Source: an uncultured Pelagibacteraceae bacterium (lineage in GTDB: Bacteria; Pseudomonadota; Alphaproteobacteria; Pelagibacterales; Pelagibacteraceae). From it: a stretch of DNA of 64,000 nucleotides. Below the pieces are notes generated by a model. That model did not search any database, had not been told where the DNA came from, and saw nothing but the letters and a program-made list of their open reading frames with translations. Of the stretch, positions 41,020 to 53,217 are shown one piece after another; within the stretch, counting starts at the first letter, position 1; each line of letters starts with the position of its first letter. Made by a program: the position numbers and the translations under genes. The stretch lies in NCBI GenBank assembly GCA_902514695.1, contig CABXRR010000001.1, forward strand, positions 1-64,000. Reading direction: 5' to 3'.

Positions 41020-41382
41020 TTATTTTTTATCTAAAGGATGATTTTGACCGTCGTTGACTGGGATATCTTTCATACCAAAGGTATCTATTTCGTCAATACA
41101 TCCTACATTAAATCCAGTCATTGCTGGATTGATCCTCGGATTGTGATGAGTATAAATTCCACATTCAGAACAAAAATAATGTTTAGCAACTTTTGAATGA
41201 AATTGATAAAGTTTTAATTTATCTTCTCCTTTGATAATTTTGAAATCTTCATTTTTTACCATCGACATAATTGCTCCTTTTCTTTTACAAATCGAACAAT
41301 TACATTTAATTACCTTTGCTAAGTCTCCATCTAAATTAATCTCAGCTTCAATGGCACCACAATGACATGTTAATTTTTTCAT
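41020..41382 (-). CDS. GFA family (glutathione-dependent formaldehyde-activating-like) zinc protein
   Basis: TCHCGAIEAEI, CNCSICKRKGA, KHYFCSECGIYTHH. Confidence 0.88.
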   Translation of the reverse strand: MKKLTCHCGAIEAEINLDGDLAKVIKCNCSICKRKGAIMSMVKNEDFKIIKGEDKLKLYQFHSKVAKHYFCSECGIYTHHNPRINPAMTGFNVGCIDEIDTFGMKDIPVNDGQNHPLDKK

Positions 41383-42164
41383 TTTAAATTACCTATTACT
41401 TTTTCTTTTGTTTTTCCTGCTCTTACTTCATCAAAATATACTACTTGGGCTGGAACTTCTTTTCCTTTATGATAACTTTTATACTTACTTATCCAAGATC
41501 TGTAAATTCCAAACTTATAATATGTTTTAACACCTTTCGATTTTGTTTTTCCTTTATAATCATAAGCTAATTTATCATTTACCCAAATTTTAAAAAAACC
41601 ATCCTCTTTATGAGTCCAATTTACATTAATCAAAATATCATTCCATTTACCTAACATCTCTTGTTTTGATAAAAGATTTCTTTTTTCAGAGGTAAAGCCC
41701 TTTACATAGTTTTCAATCCAGTAACCACCAGACCCATTTTTAAACATCCAAATTACATGTTTCTTCTCTTGATGAAATTGTCCTAACATTGTTGAAACAG
41801 GATAAACATTTATAAAATCTTCAGGTAAATATATTGACCATGCATACCATCTCTCTCCTTTGCTAACTCTGTATCTTGCGCTTAACTCATGTCTTTCTCT
41901 ATCTTTCTTACAATCATTCCATCCTCCATCCTTATCTTTACCACAATCACCAGCTCTAACTTCAAACCTTATTGATTTTTCACCAGCACGTACGGGATGA
42001 CCATCTTTTTTATCAACAACTTGCATTCCGTACTCTTTATAATAATTTCCAGTTAAACTTTTTTTAAACTTACTTCCCGATACAACATCGTTTGGCAGTT
42101 TTTCAGAAAAAGCTGTATGACAATAAAAAAGGCTTACTAAAATAATTACTGAAATTTTTTTCAT
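41379..42164 (-). CDS. Secreted polysaccharide-lyase-like protein (heparin lyase I-type family), paralog 1
   Basis: Signal peptide; KSIRFEVRAGDC...RERHELSARYRV; WYAWSIYLPEDF; MLGQFHQEK; GKWNDILINVNWTHKEDGFFKIWVNDKLAYDYKGKT. Confidence 0.72.
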   Translation of the reverse strand: MKKISVIILVSLFYCHTAFSEKLPNDVVSGSKFKKSLTGNYYKEYGMQVVDKKDGHPVRAGEKSIRFEVRAGDCGKDKDGGWNDCKKDRERHELSARYRVSKGERWYAWSIYLPEDFINVYPVSTMLGQFHQEKKHVIWMFKNGSGGYWIENYVKGFTSEKRNLLSKQEMLGKWNDILINVNWTHKEDGFFKIWVNDKLAYDYKGKTKSKGVKTYYKFGIYRSWISKYKSYHKGKEVPAQVVYFDEVRAGKTKEKVIGNLK

Positions 42165-42311
42165 TCTATTACATTCAAACTATCTCTGGTTGAAGTTATC
42201 CACAAGCATACAAAATGTGGTTTTGATGTTCACGTTTTGATTCACTTTTGATTCAGTTACAGACTCAAAATACAACCTCTTGCGTGTATTGTATAAATAA
42301 GCTATAAAATA

Positions 42312-42326: not shown

Positions 42327-42722
42327 ATGAAACTAACTATTCCCTATTATTTACATAAAGCTGGCGCTGGTTTTCCATCACCTGCCACTGATTATATCGA
42401 AGAAGATATTGACCTAAATATGCATTTAATCAGAAATGTTCCAGCCACTTTCATTATTAGGGTACAGGGAAAATCAATGGTGAATGTTGGAATTAATGAT
42501 GGAGACTTATTGGTTGTCGATAAAAGTTTAAAACCAAAAAATTTTTCAACAGTTATTGCAAATGTTCACGATGAACTTGTCGTTAAAACTTTAGTTCAAG
42601 AAAGAGATAAAAAATTTCTAACTTCTGGCTCTAAAGATTTTTCAAATAGAATTTTAATTAACGAAGAAGAAGATGTCTTTATTTGGGGGGTTGTAACTTA
42701 TGTCATCCATTCAACGTACTAG
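42327..42722 (+). CDS. umuD: UmuD-type S24 peptidase / error-prone polymerase V subunit
   Basis: AGFPSPATDYIEEDIDLN cleavage region; active-site VQGKSMVNVGINDGDLLVVDK and ELVVKTL. Confidence 0.93.
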   Translation: MKLTIPYYLHKAGAGFPSPATDYIEEDIDLNMHLIRNVPATFIIRVQGKSMVNVGINDGDLLVVDKSLKPKNFSTVIANVHDELVVKTLVQERDKKFLTSGSKDFSNRILINEEEDVFIWGVVTYVIHSTY

Positions 42723-43977
42723 AAAATTAGCTTTAGTGGATTGTAATTCTTTCTATGTTTCTTGTGAAAGACTATTTAATCCAAGAATAAGAAAAAAGCC
42801 TGTTGTTGTTTTATCAAATAATGATGGTTGTATCATCTCAAGATCTAATGAAGCAAAAGCTTTAGGAATTAAAATGGGTGAACCTTATTTTAAAGCCAAA
42901 GATATCATTGTTAAAAACAAAGTTGAAGTTTTTTCATCAAATTATTCTTTATATGGAGATTTATCTAGAAGAGTAATGAGAACTCTTAAAAGATTTAATG
43001 AAGAAATAGAAGTATATTCAATAGATGAAGCATTTATAGATTTATCAAATTTTCCAGACACAGAAGTAGAAAAAGTTGGAAAAGAAATTAGAGACACTGT
43101 TTTGCAGTGGACTGGTATTCCAACAAGTATTGGTATTGCTAAAACAAAAACTTTAAGCAAAGTTGCAAATCACATTGCAAAGAAAAAACAATCAGGTGTT
43201 ACAAGTTTAATTGGAATAGAAAATTTAGATCCTATTTTAGAAAAAGTAGAAATCAACGATGTATGGGGCGTTGGTAGACAACTTACAAAATTTTATCAAA
43301 AAAATGGAATTTATAATGCTAAACAACTAAAGAATAAATCTAACACTTGGATTAAGAAATCTTCTAATGTTTTAGGTTCAAGAACAGCAATGGAGCTCAG
43401 AGGTGTTCCATGTATAAATTTAGAAACCACGCAAACAAAAAGAAAAAGTTGTGTAGTTTCAAGATCATTTGGTAAAAGAATTGAAAAGTTTCAAGAATTA
43501 AAAGAAGCAGTTGCCAACTATTGTTTAAACGCATCTGAAAAAATTAGATCAGAGTCTTTGGTTGCAAAAGCTATTACTGTTTTTGTTAGAACCAGTCCTT
43601 TTCAAAGAAACTTTGGTTATTATTCAAATGCAAAGACAATTGATTTTCCAATCGCAACAAATAATAGTATCGAAACTGTTAAGACTGCAATTTCTATTTT
43701 GGAAAAAATTTTCAAAAATGGTTATCAATATCAAAAAGCAGGTGTCATGCTTACAGGATTACGTAATGATGATGGAAGAAAAAATTTATTTTCATCAGAA
43801 AAAGATGAAAAAATAAAAAGTTTGATGCAATCAATTGATAATACTAATTATAGATACGGTAGATCTACTTTAAGCCTTGCAAGCGCTGGTGTTCAAAAAA
43901 AATGGAATATGAGAAGACAATACTCCTCTAAAATAGATACAGCAGACTTTTATTCATTACCAAGAATAAAAATTTAA
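42700..43977 (+). CDS. umuC: DNA polymerase V catalytic subunit UmuC
   Basis: ALVDCNSFYVSCERLFNPRIRKKPVVVLSNNDGCIISRSNEAKALG; YSIDEAFIDLS; TSIGIAKTKTLSKVANHIAKK. Confidence 0.97.
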   Translation: MSSIQRTRKLALVDCNSFYVSCERLFNPRIRKKPVVVLSNNDGCIISRSNEAKALGIKMGEPYFKAKDIIVKNKVEVFSSNYSLYGDLSRRVMRTLKRFNEEIEVYSIDEAFIDLSNFPDTEVEKVGKEIRDTVLQWTGIPTSIGIAKTKTLSKVANHIAKKKQSGVTSLIGIENLDPILEKVEINDVWGVGRQLTKFYQKNGIYNAKQLKNKSNTWIKKSSNVLGSRTAMELRGVPCINLETTQTKRKSCVVSRSFGKRIEKFQELKEAVANYCLNASEKIRSESLVAKAITVFVRTSPFQRNFGYYSNAKTIDFPIATNNSIETVKTAISILEKIFKNGYQYQKAGVMLTGLRNDDGRKNLFSSEKDEKIKSLMQSIDNTNYRYGRSTLSLASAGVQKKWNMRRQYSSKIDTADFYSLPRIKI

Positions 43978-43981
43978 ATTT

Positions 43982-44869
43982 TTAATTTTGATTTTCAATT
44001 TCCTCACAAGAATAACCTAGATCTTCCAATTTAAGTTTTTTGCATGCCTTTGCTATTCTTATCTCATCATAATAAGCTATTTGAGTTGCATCTGGTCCAG
44101 GTGTTCTATTTATAAATGATCTATACACACCGACATGAAATTCTGTTCGTTCTCCCTTGTGCTGAGTTTTTCCTTTCCAGTGATATTTCAATTTTCCATT
44201 AATCCAAATTTTAAAAAAACCCTCTTTCTTATGTGTCCACTTTGCATTAACTAAAATATCATTCCACTTTCCGAACATTTCAGTTTTATCAAGTAATTTT
44301 TTTGGCGTATTATCTCCACCAACGTATTCATCGACCTCAATCCAATAGCCTCCACCCTCTTCTTTTCTAGGATCAGATTGATTTTCGAAAGCAAAAGCTG
44401 GAGGAAAATCACCATCATTATGAAATTGCGCTAACATTGTTTTAGCAGGAAAAATTATCTTATAATCATTTGGTAAATACAATGACCAAGCAGACCAGGT
44501 AGTTTTTTTGTTAACGCAGCATATTAAAAGCTCGACTCTTTCTCTGTTATTTCTCGAGTCCCAACCCCATCCATTTCCATCTCTAACCTCAAATCTCAAT
44601 GATTGTTTGCCAAATCGAACTGGATGATTTTCAGATTTACTGACTATTTTAACAACATGTTCTCTAGAATTTTTATCTGATTCTAAAATTTTTTTATTTG
44701 TTACTCTCCAATGATTAGGTTTATTATCTTCTCCTCTATCTATTACTTTATTGAAGCCTTGAGCAATATCTTTATTTTTTTTTATTTCTTTTAAAACTTC
44801 TTCAACGCCAGCAAAACTTAAATTGCACCATAATAAACTTAAGACAAAAAATAAAATAATCTTTTTCAT
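43982..44869 (-). CDS. Secreted polysaccharide-lyase-like protein, paralog 2
   Basis: Signal peptide; KQSLRFEVRDGNGWGWDSRNNRERVEL; WSAWSLYLPNDYKIIFPAKTMLAQFHNDG; GKWNDILVNAKWTHKKEGFFKIWINGKL. Confidence 0.72.
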   Translation of the reverse strand: MKKIILFFVLSLLWCNLSFAGVEEVLKEIKKNKDIAQGFNKVIDRGEDNKPNHWRVTNKKILESDKNSREHVVKIVSKSENHPVRFGKQSLRFEVRDGNGWGWDSRNNRERVELLICCVNKKTTWSAWSLYLPNDYKIIFPAKTMLAQFHNDGDFPPAFAFENQSDPRKEEGGGYWIEVDEYVGGDNTPKKLLDKTEMFGKWNDILVNAKWTHKKEGFFKIWINGKLKYHWKGKTQHKGERTEFHVGVYRSFINRTPGPDATQIAYYDEIRIAKACKKLKLEDLGYSCEEIENQN

Positions 44870-45699
44870 TATCTTTGTATTAATTTTTGAAGTTTTTCTT
44901 TGCTACTAGTTCTAAACAAATTGTCATAATAAACAACTTGTGTTGGATACTCACCATGCACCTCATCACGCCATCTACTAATCCAACTATGATAGATGCC
45001 AAATTTATTAAAAAATTTTCCTCCATATCCTGTTCTTCCTTCGTAATCGTTGTAAAGAAGATCATTAACATACATTTTTATAAATCCTTTTTTTGGATTT
45101 TTTGACATTTTGGCATGAAATATAATTGTGGTCCACTTGCCCCTCATATCATCAATTTTAAGATGTTTATGTATTACTCCTGGAGAGTCCATTCCATTTA
45201 CAGCAAAATATCTTGGCTCTAAATTACCTCTCTTAACTCTTAACATCATTCTTGGATGTCTTTGTTGATTTGTTTTTCCCCATTCATAGATTTGAAAAAG
45301 AGAAGTGCTTACTGGCTCAACTGTTTTAAAATTATTTGGTAAATAAATACTTACGGAAATCCATTTTTCTCCAGTATATCTTTTATCTGAAGAATATTCA
45401 CTTCGAGCTCTATCGCCTCCACCGTGACCTACGACAGCATCTTTGCCGTTATTTTTACAATCAGAATAATCACCTTCTTTATCTCTACCACAATCTTTAG
45501 GTAGTAATGTTATCTTCCAAGCTTTTTTGCCTAAAGCTGGAGATGTAACAGTCTCTCTAAATTTAGAGAGTTTCTTTCCTCGAGCAACACTTTTATTCCA
45601 TTGAAGATTTGTAATTTCTCTCGCTTTAGCTTCTTTTGATAAATCCGTGACTCCTAAAATGAAAATACTTAAAAATAATATTAATAAAACATTTTTCAT
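44869..45699 (-). CDS. Secreted polysaccharide-lyase-like protein, paralog 3 (divergent)
   Basis: Signal peptide; GDRARSEYSSDKRYTGEKWISVSIYLPNNF; RGKWTTIIFHAKMSKNPKKGFIKMYVNDLLYNDYEGRTGYGG. Confidence 0.66.
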   Translation of the reverse strand: MKNVLLILFLSIFILGVTDLSKEAKAREITNLQWNKSVARGKKLSKFRETVTSPALGKKAWKITLLPKDCGRDKEGDYSDCKNNGKDAVVGHGGGDRARSEYSSDKRYTGEKWISVSIYLPNNFKTVEPVSTSLFQIYEWGKTNQQRHPRMMLRVKRGNLEPRYFAVNGMDSPGVIHKHLKIDDMRGKWTTIIFHAKMSKNPKKGFIKMYVNDLLYNDYEGRTGYGGKFFNKFGIYHSWISRWRDEVHGEYPTQVVYYDNLFRTSSKEKLQKLIQR

Positions 45700-45719
45700 A
45701 ATTTTTTAAAATTAAAAAG

Positions 45720-46979
45720 TTATTTCAAATTTTTTTTAAAAAAACTAACTGTATCAGTTATAGCTTGATTTTGCTGTTCCTGAGTTCCCCAAACTGTTAC
45801 TCCTTGTCCCCCACATTCTTTAAAAATTGCATTTACAGTTTCTAGTTCAGTCATATTTTTCCAAGATTTTTCATTATAAAACCAATAACCATCTTCATCC
45901 ACGTAGCCTGGTTTACAATTTTTCATATTACCAGTGAACTCAAAATATTGTCTTTCCTGAACTTTAATAAATCCATGATGGGCACCTTTATAAATCTTAA
46001 GATCAATTTTATTTCCATTATTTTGAAGTTTTTTAACATAATTAATACAATCAATTGTTGGAGCATAATCATCAAATTCTGCATGTAACATCAGCATAGG
46101 TTTATCAACTATTTTAGGTTCTTTAAAAACAACATCACACCCAGGATATACTGGCATATAAGCGGCGAATTGTTTGCCATTTGAAACTAAATCTAACAGT
46201 TTTGGATAAGCTGTAAAAAATGCAACCATTCCTCCATAAGAATAACCAGTAATACCAATCTTGTTTTTATCTATATTTTTATGATCAGACAAAGTGTTTA
46301 AAACACTTAAACCATCATAAACTCTTGCGGAAAGACCAAGCTTCCAATAACTTTTTTTCATTTTTCTTCCTGAATAACTATCGCCAATAAATACTGCTAT
46401 ATTCTCTTTATGCATCTCCTCAATGATTTTATGATAAGCATTAACAAAACCCTTGGGATGACCTGTGCCATGTTGAATATACACCACAGGATATACTCCT
46501 TTTTTTTGGGGTAAATATAATTGTCCGGTAAGTACAACATCTTTAGATTTATAGTTATTTTCAAAAATTTCATTGAACGATTGTGGTGTTTTAGATTTGT
46601 AATTTAGATATGTAATTTTTTTACATTCTTTTAAAATTTTGTTTATTTTTACACCCTTATATTTTTCATCAACAATCGTTTTTTTCCATTTATTATTTTT
46701 TGATATAAAAAAACTGTTAGATTTTACCCAATATCTCTCTTTTTTATTTTTGTCAGAACCTTTAACTCTTTTAAAATAACCTAAATAATCACCTTTATTA
46801 ATTGAAGTGTACACTGGTTCACCATCTAAAGAACCATTGTCCTTGTACCAATTCATAGAAACTTTTACGTCCTGATTTGCTTTACAAATTTTAATGGGTT
46901 TATCGCCAATCCAAGAGGGCAACGCATTAGCGCTAATTTGCCATAACAAAAAAAGAGAGGATAAAAAAAACTTTTTCAT
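45720..46979 (-). CDS. Secreted dienelactone hydrolase-like alpha/beta hydrolase with N-terminal extension
   Basis: Signal peptide; YPVVYIQHGTGHPKGF; KIGITGYSYGGMVAFFTAYP (nucleophile GYSYGG); MLMLHAEFDDYAPTID; YKGAHHGF. Confidence 0.8.
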   Translation of the reverse strand: MKKFFLSSLFLLWQISANALPSWIGDKPIKICKANQDVKVSMNWYKDNGSLDGEPVYTSINKGDYLGYFKRVKGSDKNKKERYWVKSNSFFISKNNKWKKTIVDEKYKGVKINKILKECKKITYLNYKSKTPQSFNEIFENNYKSKDVVLTGQLYLPQKKGVYPVVYIQHGTGHPKGFVNAYHKIIEEMHKENIAVFIGDSYSGRKMKKSYWKLGLSARVYDGLSVLNTLSDHKNIDKNKIGITGYSYGGMVAFFTAYPKLLDLVSNGKQFAAYMPVYPGCDVVFKEPKIVDKPMLMLHAEFDDYAPTIDCINYVKKLQNNGNKIDLKIYKGAHHGFIKVQERQYFEFTGNMKNCKPGYVDEDGYWFYNEKSWKNMTELETVNAIFKECGGQGVTVWGTQEQQNQAITDTVSFFKKNLK

Positions 46980-48121
46980 TAAAAAGTATTTTTTATTTTT
47001 TTGTAAACTATTTTTTTCCAGTTATAATTTCTATATAATGAGCTAATTACTATTATTCTTTTATTATCCAAATCAATTAATATTTGCTGACCTGCAAATC
47101 CACTCAATCCTAAAATTTTTCTTTCTTTTTTTATTCCAAAAATATCAAAATGGATTTGGCCTCCATATGATTTTGTGTAAAGGCCTACATCAGTTGTATG
47201 TTTTACGTTGTCTTTCTTTTGAATTCTATTTTCATAAATAGTTTTTAAGTATTTACCAGCACAAGTGTCATTATGCCAATCCTCCATCATAGTTTTAGCA
47301 ATTCTTAAATAATCGTATCTATCCGCATAAAAGGAATATCTTGCAGAAACAAAATCTCCATATCTTCTAGATTTTTGAAATTGAACATTATTTTTAACTT
47401 TAACGTGTTCATTAAATACTTTGTGTAATAATTTATCCCAATCATCACCAGCTTTATGTTTCACATAATTCATTATTACATTAGTGGTAAGAGCACTATA
47501 ATTATAAATTAGTTTATTTTTTTCTGTGCCTTTCAAATATTTATTCATTACTTTCACTAGACCAATTACATTCACGTTCTCTTCTTTCTTTTTGCCTTTA
47601 ATCCTATTGTCTGAACCGACATTTCTTCTTTCACCAACCCATTTTTGATCTCCACCTCTCATATTTAAGAGATCAAGCAGTACCGCATCCTCGTAAAGAG
47701 TATCTTTAATTAAAGGCCAATCATTTAACTTTACATTAACGCTGTCAATGTAACCTTCACAAATCGCATGACCTGTTACATAAGATACTAAACTTTTGCC
47801 CATTGAATGGGATGGCAATAAACCATTAATTATTTTTTCTCCACTGCTGACGTATTTAGGAATATCAGCTACATCAATAATAATTTTATTATCCTCAAAT
47901 AATAAATAACTAATAATTCCAGTTTCTTTATTATTTTTAAATTCTTTAAGAACGTCTTTATCTTCTCTTAAATTTGATTGGAATTTATAATGGTCTTCTG
48001 AACCTTCTATGACCCAACCTCTATAATCTATAAGAGGATAATCCCAAGTATTCTTATTTTTGTTTGCATAAGTATTAGATGAAAATGTTAAAATTAAAAA
48101 AAATATGAAGAATTTTTTCAT
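46979..48121 (-). CDS. Secreted beta-lactamase-fold serine hydrolase, paralog A
   Basis: Signal peptide; SMGKSLVSYVTGHAICEGYID (SxxK); LLNMRGGDQ; IYNYSALTTNVIMNYVKHKAGDDW. Confidence 0.78.
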   Translation of the reverse strand: MKKFFIFFLILTFSSNTYANKNKNTWDYPLIDYRGWVIEGSEDHYKFQSNLREDKDVLKEFKNNKETGIISYLLFEDNKIIIDVADIPKYVSSGEKIINGLLPSHSMGKSLVSYVTGHAICEGYIDSVNVKLNDWPLIKDTLYEDAVLLDLLNMRGGDQKWVGERRNVGSDNRIKGKKKEENVNVIGLVKVMNKYLKGTEKNKLIYNYSALTTNVIMNYVKHKAGDDWDKLLHKVFNEHVKVKNNVQFQKSRRYGDFVSARYSFYADRYDYLRIAKTMMEDWHNDTCAGKYLKTIYENRIQKKDNVKHTTDVGLYTKSYGGQIHFDIFGIKKERKILGLSGFAGQQILIDLDNKRIIVISSLYRNYNWKKIVYKKIKNTF

Positions 48122-49485
48122 TTGCCCTTCTTAATTGGTTCATAAATGATTTTGCTATAATTGTAATCCTCATATATTGCGTTAGTTACTACAATTCTTG
48201 ATCTCTCAAAATCAATTACAACATGTTGGCCACTTCTACCATGCATCCCCATTACAGCTCTTTTTTTACTTATTCCTTTATAATGGGTTTGAAATTGTCC
48301 CGCATATCCACTAGCAAATCTCCACTGAATTCGATCACCCTTTCCTTCTCTTTCTCTTTTATCATTCTCTTTGTCTACTCTATTTTCCCAAATTGTTTTT
48401 AAATATTTACCTACACATGTATCATTTTGCCAATCATCTAACATTGCTTTGGCAATTCTAAGATAATCATATCGAGTAGCATAAAACATAATATTCGCAT
48501 TTCCTTTTTCCTTTGATGAATTTTTAACTTTCCAGAAAATTACGCTATCTTTAATTTTAGCTTTTTTACTAAAAGTTTTTTCTAAAATTTTTTCAAAGTC
48601 ATCACCTGTTTTAAACAAAACATAATTTAAAATTAATTGAGTGGCAAACGCACTGTAATTAAATCTTGAAGTAGCTTTTTTAGAATTTTTAAAATAGGTG
48701 ATATATTGTGATATATCTTCAGCATTATCATCTGTTCCACTTGTAAATTTGTTATCAAGTAAAAAATCACTACTGTATACATATTCTTGATCACCAGCAC
48801 TCATATTTAAAAGATTAATTAATTTTTGATCGTAATAAAGTGTATTTTCTATTAACGGCCAATCATTTAATCTTGAATTAATACTGTCTATATAGCCTTC
48901 GCATATTGCATGGCCTGCAACATAAGATGCCATCGTTTTACCCACAGACATTGATCTTAATTTAGTATCTTGATTTATAAATTTTCCAAATCGATCTTTA
49001 GGTGTAAATTTATCAATCGTAATTTTGTTATCTTCAAACCTTAAATAACTTATCAAGGCTGTTTTCTTTAACTGTTTATCAATATACTTATCTTCTTTTA
49101 ATTTGGATTTAAATTTATAAGGTTTTTTAGATGGTTTTACTTCGTATACATCAACCCTCGGTTTGTCTCTATATGGAGAATATGTGAACTTATAGAGCTC
49201 AAAAAGCAAAGTTCCAAAATTAGGTTTTACAGTTTCTTCTGGAAGCCAGCCATCATAAAATTTAATTTTTAAATTGTTGTTATATTTAGGTTGGTCACAT
49301 TTGTTGTAGTACCACATATTGCTATACTTAGGCTCCGTTTTGCATACTGCACTCTCGGTTTTGGAAACATATTCAGTATGACCATTTTCAAATAACCATT
49401 TGTTGAACCCATCAAATTTATTATTTGCATAGCTATTTCCAAATAAAAATAAGCTTAAAGTTAAGATTACTAATATTTTTTTCAT
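48118..49485 (-). CDS. Secreted beta-lactamase-fold serine hydrolase, paralog B
   Basis: Signal peptide; FNKWLFENGHTEYV; SMSVGKTMASYVAGHAICEGYID; LLNMSAGDQEYV; FNYSAFATQLILNYVLFKTGDDF. Confidence 0.78.
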   Translation of the reverse strand: MKKILVILTLSLFLFGNSYANNKFDGFNKWLFENGHTEYVSKTESAVCKTEPKYSNMWYYNKCDQPKYNNNLKIKFYDGWLPEETVKPNFGTLLFELYKFTYSPYRDKPRVDVYEVKPSKKPYKFKSKLKEDKYIDKQLKKTALISYLRFEDNKITIDKFTPKDRFGKFINQDTKLRSMSVGKTMASYVAGHAICEGYIDSINSRLNDWPLIENTLYYDQKLINLLNMSAGDQEYVYSSDFLLDNKFTSGTDDNAEDISQYITYFKNSKKATSRFNYSAFATQLILNYVLFKTGDDFEKILEKTFSKKAKIKDSVIFWKVKNSSKEKGNANIMFYATRYDYLRIAKAMLDDWQNDTCVGKYLKTIWENRVDKENDKREREGKGDRIQWRFASGYAGQFQTHYKGISKKRAVMGMHGRSGQHVVIDFERSRIVVTNAIYEDYNYSKIIYEPIKKGK

Positions 49486-50864
49486 TTGCCTTTTTTAAAT
49501 GGATCGTGCAGTAGTTTTTTGTGATTATATTTAAATTGTTTGTTATTATAATGGAGTGAATTAACAACCAGTATTCTTGAATTTTCTACATCAATTAAAA
49601 TCATATTCCCACCATAGCCACCCATGCCAAATATAATTTTGTCTTTTAATCCTGGAAAATCCATATGAAATTGACCCCCATATGATTTTGTACGATTAAA
49701 AAAAGGCTCTTCTGTTTCTTTGCTTCCTTTTGGTATTCTTCTTTTATAAATTTCTTTTAAATATTTTCCAACACAAGTATCATTCTGATAATCATCCATT
49801 ATAGCTTTTGATAATCTAAGATAGTCAAATCTTGTTGCCATTATATTAGGATGTCCATTTCCAAATTGTTCTTTATAACTAGTATAGCCATAACGAATGC
49901 TATTTTTGATCTTTATTTTATCATTGAAAACTTTGCTATAAAATTTGTCATAATCTTCACCGATTTTAAATTTCATATAGTTTAAAATTAACTGAGTGAC
50001 AAATCCATTATAATTGTATCTTTCCTTAGATTTTTTTGTATTTTTATTTCTAAAGTGTAAGCGCATAGTTGTTTCAATATCCCTATCTTCATATGCACCT
50101 AATTTACTAGTACCATCTTTAAATTCATCGATATATTTTTGATCACCAGTATTCATATTTAAAAAATTAATTAATTTTTGATCATGATAAAGTGAATCTT
50201 TTATTATAGGCCAATCATTTACTCTTGCATCAACTCCATCAATATAACCCTCACATATGGCGTGGCCTACTAAATAAGAAGTTACTGACTTACCCATCGA
50301 CATTGAATAAAATTTTGTTTCATTATTCAAAAACTCTCCTAATCTTTCTTTGGGAGAAAGTTCGTCAATTAATACTTCACCATCTTGATAATATAAATAA
50401 CTAAGGATACCTTTAGTTTTCATTTGCTTTTTTACAAATTTATCTTCAATTAAATTGAATTTAAAATCGTAGGAATTATTTGTTGATTTAAATTCTTTTA
50501 AATGTGAACTTCTATCTCTATAAGAATATTTCCATAAATAATAAATCAGAGTATCTCTATTTGGGTTTGCATGATAAGTAATATTAGTTGATGAAAATGC
50601 TTTATTAGCTAACTTGATTTTTAGATTGTTCCTGGTTATCATTTTTCCTTTGGGATAATTCCCACATTCCTCATTTAACCAAGCATCACTATTTTTTTTA
50701 AATGTTGCGCAAATATCAACCTTTGCACCCCCATCTTTTAAATATTGCGAATGGCCATTTTCCAAAAGCCATTTATTGAATTGATTTTGGTTGTTAAGCT
50801 CAGCAGCAAATAGATTGCTTGAAGTTAATAAACTTAAAATAAGTATTACTAATATTCTTTTCAT
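49482..50864 (-). CDS. Secreted beta-lactamase-fold serine hydrolase, paralog C
   Basis: Signal peptide; FNKWLLENGHSQYL; SMSMGKSVTSYLVGHAICEGYID; FLNMNTGDQKYID; YNYNGFVTQLILNYMKFKIGEDY. Confidence 0.78.
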   Translation of the reverse strand: MKRILVILILSLLTSSNLFAAELNNQNQFNKWLLENGHSQYLKDGGAKVDICATFKKNSDAWLNEECGNYPKGKMITRNNLKIKLANKAFSSTNITYHANPNRDTLIYYLWKYSYRDRSSHLKEFKSTNNSYDFKFNLIEDKFVKKQMKTKGILSYLYYQDGEVLIDELSPKERLGEFLNNETKFYSMSMGKSVTSYLVGHAICEGYIDGVDARVNDWPIIKDSLYHDQKLINFLNMNTGDQKYIDEFKDGTSKLGAYEDRDIETTMRLHFRNKNTKKSKERYNYNGFVTQLILNYMKFKIGEDYDKFYSKVFNDKIKIKNSIRYGYTSYKEQFGNGHPNIMATRFDYLRLSKAIMDDYQNDTCVGKYLKEIYKRRIPKGSKETEEPFFNRTKSYGGQFHMDFPGLKDKIIFGMGGYGGNMILIDVENSRILVVNSLHYNNKQFKYNHKKLLHDPFKKGK

Positions 50865-50972
50865 AGGTTATGCTCTTTTTTTTATGTTGTCCCTTTTTTT
50901 AAAGTGAGCACAACCACACTTACCGCAACATAGTAAATTTATGTTAAGTAAAAATCTATGTCAAATATTTAC

Positions 50973-51842
50973 TTACTTGATTTGATCAATATTATTTATA
51001 TTTTCTAAAGACTTTTCAAACTCATCCATATTTTCTCTTAAAGCTAAGTTTGAAATTGAATAAACAGCTACAAGTAAAAATACCAATGGTATTGCAGTGA
51101 TTACAGATGCATTACTCTTAATGAATAAAATATATAAAATTATAAATAAAGCTGAACGAATTAAAAAGGTTTTTCTAAAAACACTAATAATAGAGAGTGA
51201 ATGTTTTATGAGATTATAAAAGCTCATTTTAGAAGGACCAAAATACCTGGGTCCCCTTATAGAAGGTATTGACAATAAATCATTTTCTATTTTCGTTAGA
51301 GAACCTGAGAAACTATTCCAGGTAGCTTTTTCATTAATCATTTTTTCAACAGTGCCTTTTGGTAAACAAGTAAAATTACCAAATTTGATTGACTTACCAG
51401 TAAAAGTATAAGTTATTAATTTGTGTATTTGATAACAAATTTTAAATGTTAATCCCTCAGATCTTTTAACTCTTAAACCAACTATTGGTTTGTCATTTGA
51501 ATCTTTAATTTTATCAATAAATTCCTTAATTTCTTCAGGTCTATCTTCACCATCCCCATCCATAGGAATAACATAATCAAAATCTTCTTTTTCAAATATG
51601 TATTTTAATCCTGTGGCTATACATCTTGCATGACCTTGGTTTTTTTTCATATTTATGATTTTAAATGAATGTATATTTTCTAAGTTTTTACTTTCTTCTG
51701 GGCGATCATGATTTGAAGCATCATTCACTATAATTACAGAAATTTGAAATTCTGAACTTATGGATAAATTATTAATTTCATCTACCAGTTTTGAAGTTGA
51801 CTGCCAATCATTATAAAGAGGAATTAAAATTTTGATTTTCAT
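50973..51842 (-). CDS. Glycosyltransferase family 2 protein
   Basis: ILIPLYNDWQSTSKLVDEI, VIIVNDASNHDRP, FDYVIPMDGDGEDRPEEI; C-terminal TM segments. Confidence 0.87.
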   Translation of the reverse strand: MKIKILIPLYNDWQSTSKLVDEINNLSISSEFQISVIIVNDASNHDRPEESKNLENIHSFKIINMKKNQGHARCIATGLKYIFEKEDFDYVIPMDGDGEDRPEEIKEFIDKIKDSNDKPIVGLRVKRSEGLTFKICYQIHKLITYTFTGKSIKFGNFTCLPKGTVEKMINEKATWNSFSGSLTKIENDLLSIPSIRGPRYFGPSKMSFYNLIKHSLSIISVFRKTFLIRSALFIILYILFIKSNASVITAIPLVFLLVAVYSISNLALRENMDEFEKSLENINNIDQIK

Positions 51843-51858
51843 TTATGTAATGTATCTC

Positions 51859-53217
51859 TTAATATCTCCCTAAACAAACATCATCTATGCAAATAAATTG
51901 GGATGAATCATTCAGCAGTTTATCATTTGTATACCCTTCCCACCTAGGTCTTGATTTTAGATGATAGGAGAGATTGCCTGCATTCCATTCATTCCCTGTT
52001 ACAAATTCAATTTCTTTATCAAAATTTTTATCCCATGTAATCTGTACCTTGGTGGCAATATCTTTTCCTGGATAGTCTGTACGCTTATCTGTTTGAGATA
52101 TTGAAACGTATGAATAAATTATAGGCGATAAAAAAAAGAAAAACAGAAAACCATATAAAAAAGAATTTAATTTTTTTAAGTTTATTTGAGTTTGAAATAT
52201 ATAAATAAATAAAACTCCAAAAAAAGAATAAAAAGGTGTCATCCACATTGATCTAATTTTTGAACCTGTTACGATCGAAGTTAAAAGCAATAAGGCTATA
52301 GGCAAAATATTTATAAATATTAAAAATAAAAGTTTTTTGTCATTCAAATTTATTTTAAATTTTATTTTTTTTACCAATAACCAAATTAAAAATAAAAATG
52401 GAATTAATATTCCTGCTTGTTTAAGTAAAAAAATAATTGGATATTTTAAATGATCTATAAAACTTAATTCGTCCAATCCTGCTCTCTTTAAACCATATGT
52501 GATTGTTATAAAGTCATTATTATAAAGCCAAATAAAATGGGGCACTAACAATACCAAAAATACCTCTAAGGTTATCAAATATTTAAAATCAAACTTTTTA
52601 GTTTTTTTGAAAAAAATAATATAAATAAATAATAGATCTATTGATATTAAAAGATAAATAAAAAGATATTTTGATAAAAAACCTATCGCAGCGAACAAGC
52701 CAACTAAAAAGCAATCTAAAAATTTTATTTCTTTTTTGTCGTAAACTTTCCAAGAATAGTAAACTACTAATGACCAGAATGGTAATTGACTAACATTTAC
52801 ATTAAATTCTGGTGTCGTAAAATTAAAAAAATAAATAGCTTCCAATAATAAAACTGAAATTAAACTCAATTTTGAATTTTTCAAAATTTCATTAGCAAAT
52901 TTAAATATGAAAAAAAATGATATTAAAATAAAAATTTGACTTAATAAATAATAAGCCCAATCTTGAGATCCAAAAATTTGAAAAAAAACTTCAGAAAAAA
53001 ATGCACTTGCTGGAGGATGTTTATTAAAGCCCCAGTCCAAATTACTTCCCCAGGCTAATGCTTCTATTGTATCTAAAGGTAAATTCTTATTTGTTAGTGT
53101 CGGAATTAAAGTCCAAATTATTAAATGAGATAAAACAAAAATAAAAAAAATATTATTTATATTTCTATTCAAAGCATTCATTAATAAATATTTACAATAA
53201 TTAAGGTTGCTTGACAC
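51859..53217 (-). CDS. Glycosyltransferase family 39-like membrane protein
   Basis: Multi-TM; LPLDTIEALAWGSNLDWGFNKHPPASAFFSEVFFQIFGSQDWAYYLLSQ. Confidence 0.78.
   Translation of the reverse strand: MSSNLNYCKYLLMNALNRNINNIFFIFVLSHLIIWTLIPTLTNKNLPLDTIEALAWGSNLDWGFNKHPPASAFFSEVFFQIFGSQDWAYYLLSQIFILISFFFIFKFANEILKNSKLSLISVLLLEAIYFFNFTTPEFNVNVSQLPFWSLVVYYSWKVYDKKEIKFLDCFLVGLFAAIGFLSKYLFIYLLISIDLLFIYIIFFKKTKKFDFKYLITLEVFLVLLVPHFIWLYNNDFITITYGLKRAGLDELSFIDHLKYPIIFLLKQAGILIPFLFLIWLLVKKIKFKINLNDKKLLFLIFINILPIALLLLTSIVTGSKIRSMWMTPFYSFFGVLFIYIFQTQINLKKLNSFLYGFLFFFFLSPIIYSYVSISQTDKRTDYPGKDIATKVQITWDKNFDKEIEFVTGNEWNAGNLSYHLKSRPRWEGYTNDKLLNDSSQFICIDDVCLGRY

Follow-up and report, generated by a model that had tools for sequence, protein, structure and literature searches.

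Why does a SAR11 genome carry six consecutive genes for enzymes that appear to be exported? SAR11 is the ocean's most abundant bacterium, and it is usually pictured as feeding on small dissolved molecules with hardly any regulation. We analyzed a 64,000-nucleotide stretch of DNA from an uncultured Pelagibacteraceae bacterium (contig CABXRR010000001.1, positions 1 to 64,000; the window), in which a minus-strand locus at coordinates 43982–50864 encodes three serine hydrolases (SH1–SH3), an alpha/beta hydrolase (ABH) and two polysaccharide lyases (LY2 and LY1). The best explanation, to which we assign a probability of about 0.6, is that Pelagibacter strains exchange a variable island horizontally, that its cargo consists most often of exported glycan-active enzymes, and that this locus is one of its alleles. 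This reading builds on computed protein families, folds and catalytic residues, an insertion slot that varies and is sometimes empty, signs of purifying selection and of exchange between strains, and a structured leader RNA.

The locus is bordered on the left by GT2, an ArnC/GtrB-like polyprenyl-phosphate glycosyltransferase gene (50973–51842, minus strand), with a PMT_2 glycosyltransferase gene of the GT-C, ArnT/RgtA-like superfamily (51859–53217, minus strand) as a conserved flank, and on the right by a umuC-like gene (42700–43977, plus strand) that is convergent with LY1 and 4 nt from it. We surveyed this slot in 57 loci chosen solely by carrying the neighboring PMT_2 gene, and thus blind to cargo. 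The GT2–umuC interval ranges from -8 nt (an overlap) to 10.9 kb; thirteen loci are empty, a PF14099 protein is present in 15, a PF05426 protein in 14, a lyase of either type in 28, and a DUF1800 protein in eight. On sequence evidence, GT2–umuC is a general insertion slot and predicted exported lyases are its most frequent cargo class. In related islands the cargo extends to a GH10-like protein, a sulfatase, more PF14099 or PF05426 proteins, and DUF1501/DUF1800 pairs; such pairs have also been described next to chitin synthases in bacteria, with unknown function (PMC5122149).

A single site, variable content and an empty allele characterize a flexible genomic island, and all three are found here. 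The flexible genomic islands already known in SAR11 share the fixed site, variable cargo and empty alleles of the GT2–umuC slot, and most of the other islands are reported to hold hypothetical proteins (PMC7318151); exported lyase or hydrolase cargo is not described in the SAR11-island literature that we searched. A 2009 study placed a predicted glycosyltransferase, SAR11_0633, near an S24-type SOS gene, SAR11_0635, and noted variable genes surrounding the SAR11_0636 RNA (PMC2704228), and the SAR11_0633–SAR11_0636 region fits the GT2–umuC site.

The cargo genes are under purifying selection, with dN/dS values of 0.07–0.24. When the window is compared with locus L104, dS is 0.21 for SH1 and 0.99, 1.43 and 1.99 for umuC, PMT_2 and GT2, respectively. 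The dS of SH1 is far below that of the flanks and therefore points to recent movement of SH1 between diverged backgrounds, while the dN/dS values indicate that function has been kept. A phage origin of the lyases and hydrolases was considered and rejected, as no tblastn match was found in 50,697 phage records.

The first-pass annotation, made from the window sequence, described a locus of this kind as unexpected in a streamlined oligotroph, which is fair for the single genome, but the genes are a common variable accessory trait rather than one odd locus. Among 151 congeneric Pelagibacter genomes, which are incomplete such that all counts are lower bounds, the serine hydrolases are present in at least 40, PF14099 in at least 64 and PF05426 (alginate-lyase-type) in at least 31, and one or both lyase families in at least 80 (counted by hand from both lists). 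When named genomes were scanned with the hydrolase alignment, the matches came almost exclusively from Pelagibacteraceae single cells, and a congeneric, near-complete, single-contig genome has three copies; the window is therefore SAR11 DNA and the hydrolases are not an assembly artifact. Among 289 alphaproteobacterial genomes, full-length hydrolases are found in Pelagibacter only (G000 and G357), and outside this genus the only matches are short, of class-C type and weak (at most 61 bits). Hydrolases and lyases occur together in 24 genomes where 17 would be expected (p = 0.007, without correction for genome completeness); this co-occurrence is modest and the hydrolases are often alone, and an obligate pairing is rejected. 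Recurrent co-occurrence and partial synteny are supported, but the hydrolases are often found without lyases and at other sites.

The genes themselves are organized much as the first-pass annotation had described. All six minus-strand open reading frames are present, and each product has an N-terminal hydrophobic signal-like segment, called by a heuristic rather than by SignalP. The reported short overlaps are also present: SH1/SH2 and SH2/SH3 overlap by 4 nt each, and SH3/ABH and LY2/LY1 by 1 nt each, with a 20 nt gap between ABH and LY2. Three further items accompany these six genes, namely a third lyase gene (LY3), the co-directional upstream GT2 and PMT_2 genes, and an RNA leader.

The lyases are the most readily classified of the proteins. 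The expectation that LY1 (43982–44869, minus strand) and LY2 (44869–45699, minus strand) would match PF14099 was borne out (E = 2.6e-22 and 3.9e-21), and LY3 (41379–42164, minus strand), which lies outside the originally annotated range in another variable slot, past umuD, matches it at E = 2.1e-25; the three scores are 80.2, 76.3 and 90.3 bits, with a gathering cut-off of 29.9. An AF2 model of LY3 (pLDDT 90.7) is a jelly-roll whose best PDB match is the Trichoderma reesei glucuronan lyase A of family PL20 (2ZZJ; E = 1.4e-11), followed by GH131 and PL7 alginate lyases, and a profile search also finds 2ZZJ (E = 7e-15). The lyases share with this enzyme the fold, profile similarity, and aligned Gln and Tyr residues, but are bacterial, carry Arg where that enzyme has His at the first position, and have an extra His in a QFH motif, as in PL7. 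Their R-x-E-L and Q-x-H motifs and invariant Tyr resemble the PL7 active site, although they have no PL7 Pfam match and the structural match is weaker than that to 2ZZJ. Among 85 distinct island lyases the catalytic columns of LY3 are conserved as R91 in 82, Q129 in 71, H131 in 55 and Y221 in all 85, with Lys (18) and Tyr (10) as substitutes at H131. The full R/Q/H/Y set is present in LY1 and LY3, whereas LY2 is the Tyr variant, keeping R, Q and Y. LY1 and LY3 thus appear to have a uronate-lyase-type active site and may act by beta-elimination on a polymer containing uronic acid; by analogy with PL7 and PL20 enzymes, R, Q and H would bind the uronate and Y would be the acid/base. In the PF05426-type proteins of the slot, NH and RG-x-R-A-x-F-Y motifs are conserved, as in PL5 enzymes. 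Some island lyases (L065:2-8476, L172, L142) have an extra C-terminal module, KNKLDDKVLIKVR...CYVHYSSQVAFGQ, common to PF14099 and PF05426 proteins. The SAR11_0636 sRNA (RF01827, 119.6 bits) is located at window coordinates 42188–42277 on the minus strand, where it precedes the LY3 start codon by ~24 nt, and judging from this position could be the leader of the LY3 gene in this strain.

SH1 (49482–50864, minus strand; 460 residues) is a predicted exported class-C beta-lactamase-like serine hydrolase with S189-x-x-K192 and Y285. SH2 (48118–49485, minus strand; 455 residues) and the shorter SH3 (46979–48121, minus strand; 380 residues), which lacks the N-terminal region, are paralogues of it at 42–45% identity, and the motifs on which their paralogy had been proposed are present. 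The beta-lactamase fold that had been assigned to all three is supported by structure prediction of SH1 (AF2, pLDDT 89.7), whose best match is the class C beta-lactamase-related PIB-1 (8RLJ; E = 1.1e-13), with further matches to the 6-aminohexanoate-dimer hydrolase NylB, D-peptidases and DltE. The curated PF00144 cut-off of 27 bits is reached by none of the three, however (20.1 bits, 10.5 bits, and no match), and Pfam beta-lactamase membership is rejected. In 40 diverse members S189 is conserved in 40, K192 in 39 and Y285 in 40, so that fold, S-x-x-K and catalytic Tyr are common to these proteins and PIB-1 or NylB, but they have an N-terminal region of their own and the asparagine of the YxN motif is not conserved, position 287 (Y285+2) being G in 13, N in 11 and A in 8 of the 40. 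ABH (45720–46979, minus strand), also predicted to be exported, belongs to the DLH family as had been anticipated (PF01738, E = 2.3e-14; 53.9 bits against a cut-off of 21) and has a GxSxG nucleophile motif (GYSYGG); none of the other loci that we examined contains a relative. Ester- or amide-linked groups would be the targets of the serine hydrolases and ABH, which would remove them by means of a Ser (SxxK) or a Ser-His-Asp nucleophile, respectively.

Upstream of SH1 lies a 37 nt 5′ leader (50886–50922, minus strand) with the sequence AAGTGTGGTTGTGCTCACTTTAAAAAAAGGGACAAC at 50886–50921, for which zero matches are expected in shuffled window sequence. The leader is predicted to form a hairpin with a 5–6 bp stem and a GUUGU loop that pairs with a downstream ACAAC, and this 5 bp loop-to-tail helix would, by complementarity, generate an H-type pseudoknot. 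When the window leader is aligned with 31 other copies, pairing in the 6 bp stem and the loop-to-tail helix reaches 99.7% of cells, falling to 29–54% if the partner is shifted by 1–3 columns, and two stem pairs covary on both sides (C-G/G-C and A-U/C-G/U-G/G-U). A covariance model finds 44 copies at 61–75 bits (duplicate records included) in ~3 Mb, with noise at or below 20 bits. The SAM-V and SAM-II riboswitches of SAR11 (PMC2704228, PMC6061858) are likewise small H-type pseudoknots near a start codon, but the sequence and regulon of the leader differ from theirs; no Rfam match was found at E≤1, and identity with either is rejected.

The distinct genes downstream of the leader encode 29 serine hydrolases, six DUF1800 proteins and two PF14099 lyases (L086 and L085, the latter by family assignment). 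In loci mostly selected by the presence of a serine hydrolase, the leader heads 24 of 26 island hydrolase units (25 with a variant in L106 that was missed by a relaxed text pattern and recovered by the covariance model), as compared with three of 26 units elsewhere (Fisher p ~1e-9) and one of 28 internal island genes. Conserved structure, covariation and several downstream gene families are features of a cis-regulatory RNA, and the leader has all of them. A promoter-like TTGACA-17-TAAATT (50936–50964, minus strand) precedes the leader. Among 35 distinct copies, 15 have a TTGAC box at a near-fixed upstream distance of 35–45 nt, where 0.8 would be expected by chance, and this would place the transcription start near the leader 5′ end. 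The PMT-selected survey yielded one leader copy besides that of the window: an orphan at L263:5470-5516 with a mutated tail helix and no downstream gene, which adjoins a GH10-like gene and looks like a decayed cassette.

The loop segment GGTTGTGCTC (50906–50915, minus strand) takes part both in the proposed pseudoknot and in a proposed pairing with the start site, as GAGCATAACC, directly upstream of the SH1 start codon (50866–50875, minus strand), is its 10 nt perfect complement (with G-U). In the lowest-energy fold of the window leader, loop GGUUGUGCUC pairs with GAGCAUAACC directly before the start codon, although with z = -1.6 the energy alone is unconvincing. The complementarity is kept, with G-U changes, in all 13 G-type leaders tested (p = 0.002, the test minimum). 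The pseudoknot and the start-site fold are mutually exclusive because both use the same loop bases, and this looks like a translational-switch architecture common to several exported-enzyme genes. We would put at even odds that it is a new riboswitch-like class of pseudoknotted 5′ leader on a constantly exchanged island, acting as a translational switch for exported enzymes, namely serine hydrolases, certain PF14099 lyases and DUF1800/DUF1501 proteins, according to whether the loop pairs with ACAAC or with the start site.

A working model can be drawn from these sequences. The mRNA would start at the leader from the promoter ~40 nt upstream; the loop paired with ACAAC would leave the start site free, and paired with GAGCAUAACC would block translation, such that a cellular signal sets enzyme output through the choice of fold. 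Sec would carry the proteins across the inner membrane, and they would work in the periplasm or extracellularly, LY1 and LY3 cleaving a uronic-acid polymer, with LY2 as a variant, and the serine hydrolases and ABH stripping ester- or amide-linked groups. The purpose may be trimming of a surface glycan or exopolymer, or loosening of a bound polymer; given that the usual uronate pathway is missing, either is likelier than full catabolism.

Here the extracellular polymer-cleaving pathway originally envisaged divides into two. Its enzymatic part is supported by the signal-like segments, the uronate-lyase-type sites and a leader common to hydrolases, two lyases and DUF1800 genes, but a nutritional pathway is not: among 61 Pelagibacter genomes KDPG aldolase is found in none and GH88 in one (PF00701-type KDG aldolase was not searched for), and TonB receptors are found in four and not in G000 (generic sugar ABC uptake was not searched for). 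No TonB or SusCD uptake gene was found beside the locus, in agreement with the earlier annotation, and the outer-membrane uptake and downstream uronate catabolism (GH88, KDPG aldolase) of a polysaccharide utilization locus are not seen. Ordinary foraging is doubtful because canonical uronate-catabolism and TonB-uptake genes do not accompany the locus. A tentative foraging alternative is that secreted lyases and esterases digest uronate polysaccharides of phytoplankton or particles and the products are eaten via ABC or TRAP transporters and an unrecognized uronate route. The island repeatedly carries lyases of two folds (PF14099 and PF05426) along with genes for GH10-like proteins and sulfatase, its cargo is common in open-ocean SAR11, and several genomes have TRAP transporter genes next to it, but these sit with aromatic-catabolism-like genes (judged by N-terminal sequences only) and the sulfatase has no signal-like segment. 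A possible, although still tentative, alternative is that the O-chain or exopolymer of the cell itself is what the enzymes trim, at uronate units for instance, altering the surface seen by phages and grazers, with cargo swapping as an arms race. SAR11 has a hyperdiverse O-chain cluster (PMC11898729), cargo turns over rapidly between strains, and the slot adjoins the ArnC-like GT2 and PMT_2 genes, although this adjacency may be accidental and the cargo is uncorrelated with any O-chain type tested; the lack of phage homologues is neutral. Sugar-nucleotide dehydrogenase (uronate-making) genes are nearly universal (145 of 151 genomes), and a self-made uronate glycan is therefore possible. We lean slightly towards surface or exopolymer trimming, with foraging by an unrecognized route nearly as likely.

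Two narrower alternatives are both improbable. The serine hydrolases might act on amides, D-peptides or beta-lactams, with a role that concerns the cell wall or antibiotics and has no connection to the lyases, as their nearest folds and frequent solitary occurrence would allow; this is unlikely given that the leader is shared by hydrolases, DUF1800 genes and two PF14099 lyases and that class-C beta-lactamase curated cut-offs are not reached. Similarly, the leader could be a DNA element, either an operator or a cassette-borne recombination tag, since its copies are very highly identical, an inverted repeat would show covariation too, and cassettes move between strains. We give this little credence, as the helices are interleaved and fixed in sense orientation, the leader sits between a promoter-like box and a start codon, two copies occur on separate units of one island (L111, L172, L085), the G-type loop is complementary to the start site, and the leader is decayed where the downstream gene was lost (L263).

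Several observations weigh against the exchanged island of glycan-active enzymes and its leader switch. The slot also takes non-glycan cargo, read from sequences as PEP carboxylase (ppc), urease and an ammonium transporter, and co-location alone is therefore weak evidence. Serine hydrolase genes at other sites are often solitary and leaderless, and the active-site His is absent from LY2 and many island homologues. The second pseudoknot helix is near-invariant, with one G-U and no two-sided covariation, so that covariation does not prove the tail helix, and C-type leaders mostly have no strong start-site complementarity. Lastly, catabolism might still proceed by way of a PF00701-type KDG aldolase and generic sugar ABC uptake.

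Should exported lyases of the uronate type indeed be encoded by about half of Pelagibacter genomes, many in one swappable slot and some under their own RNA leader, then SAR11 has an overlooked effect, either on the polysaccharides of the sea or on the surface of its own cells. A concrete enzyme set and a candidate RNA switch are now defined, and if the switch is real SAR11 would be a regulated, strain-specific editor of uronate glycans.

A predicted exported protein of 820–850 residues (c57), with low-complexity Gly/Pro-type repeats near its C-terminus, recurs in the island (L076:12305-14863, L075:2624-5146) together with a small partner (c74), and neither has a Pfam match. Near-identical, rare-codon-rich signal-peptide DNA (ATGAAAAAACTTTTAGGGATCGTGGTTCTGGGTTTG...) starts non-homologous secreted genes (L213:249-8962; L214:5354 and 6455; L215:1324 and 3019; other loci), with ~100 copies in 57 of 151 genomes and up to eight in 9 kb; a reversed control gave none. 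Similarity among copies stops at the cleavage site, a pattern that suggests signal-peptide shuffling in SAR11. This 36 nt cassette is rejected as the source of the window genes, as it has no matches in G000 and the window signal-peptide DNA is no closer than random codons. Finally, L223:1072-6124 contains eight tandem pilin-like genes with a common FTLIELLVVVAIIGILAAVGVVAYNGYT-type N-terminus and divergent C-termini.

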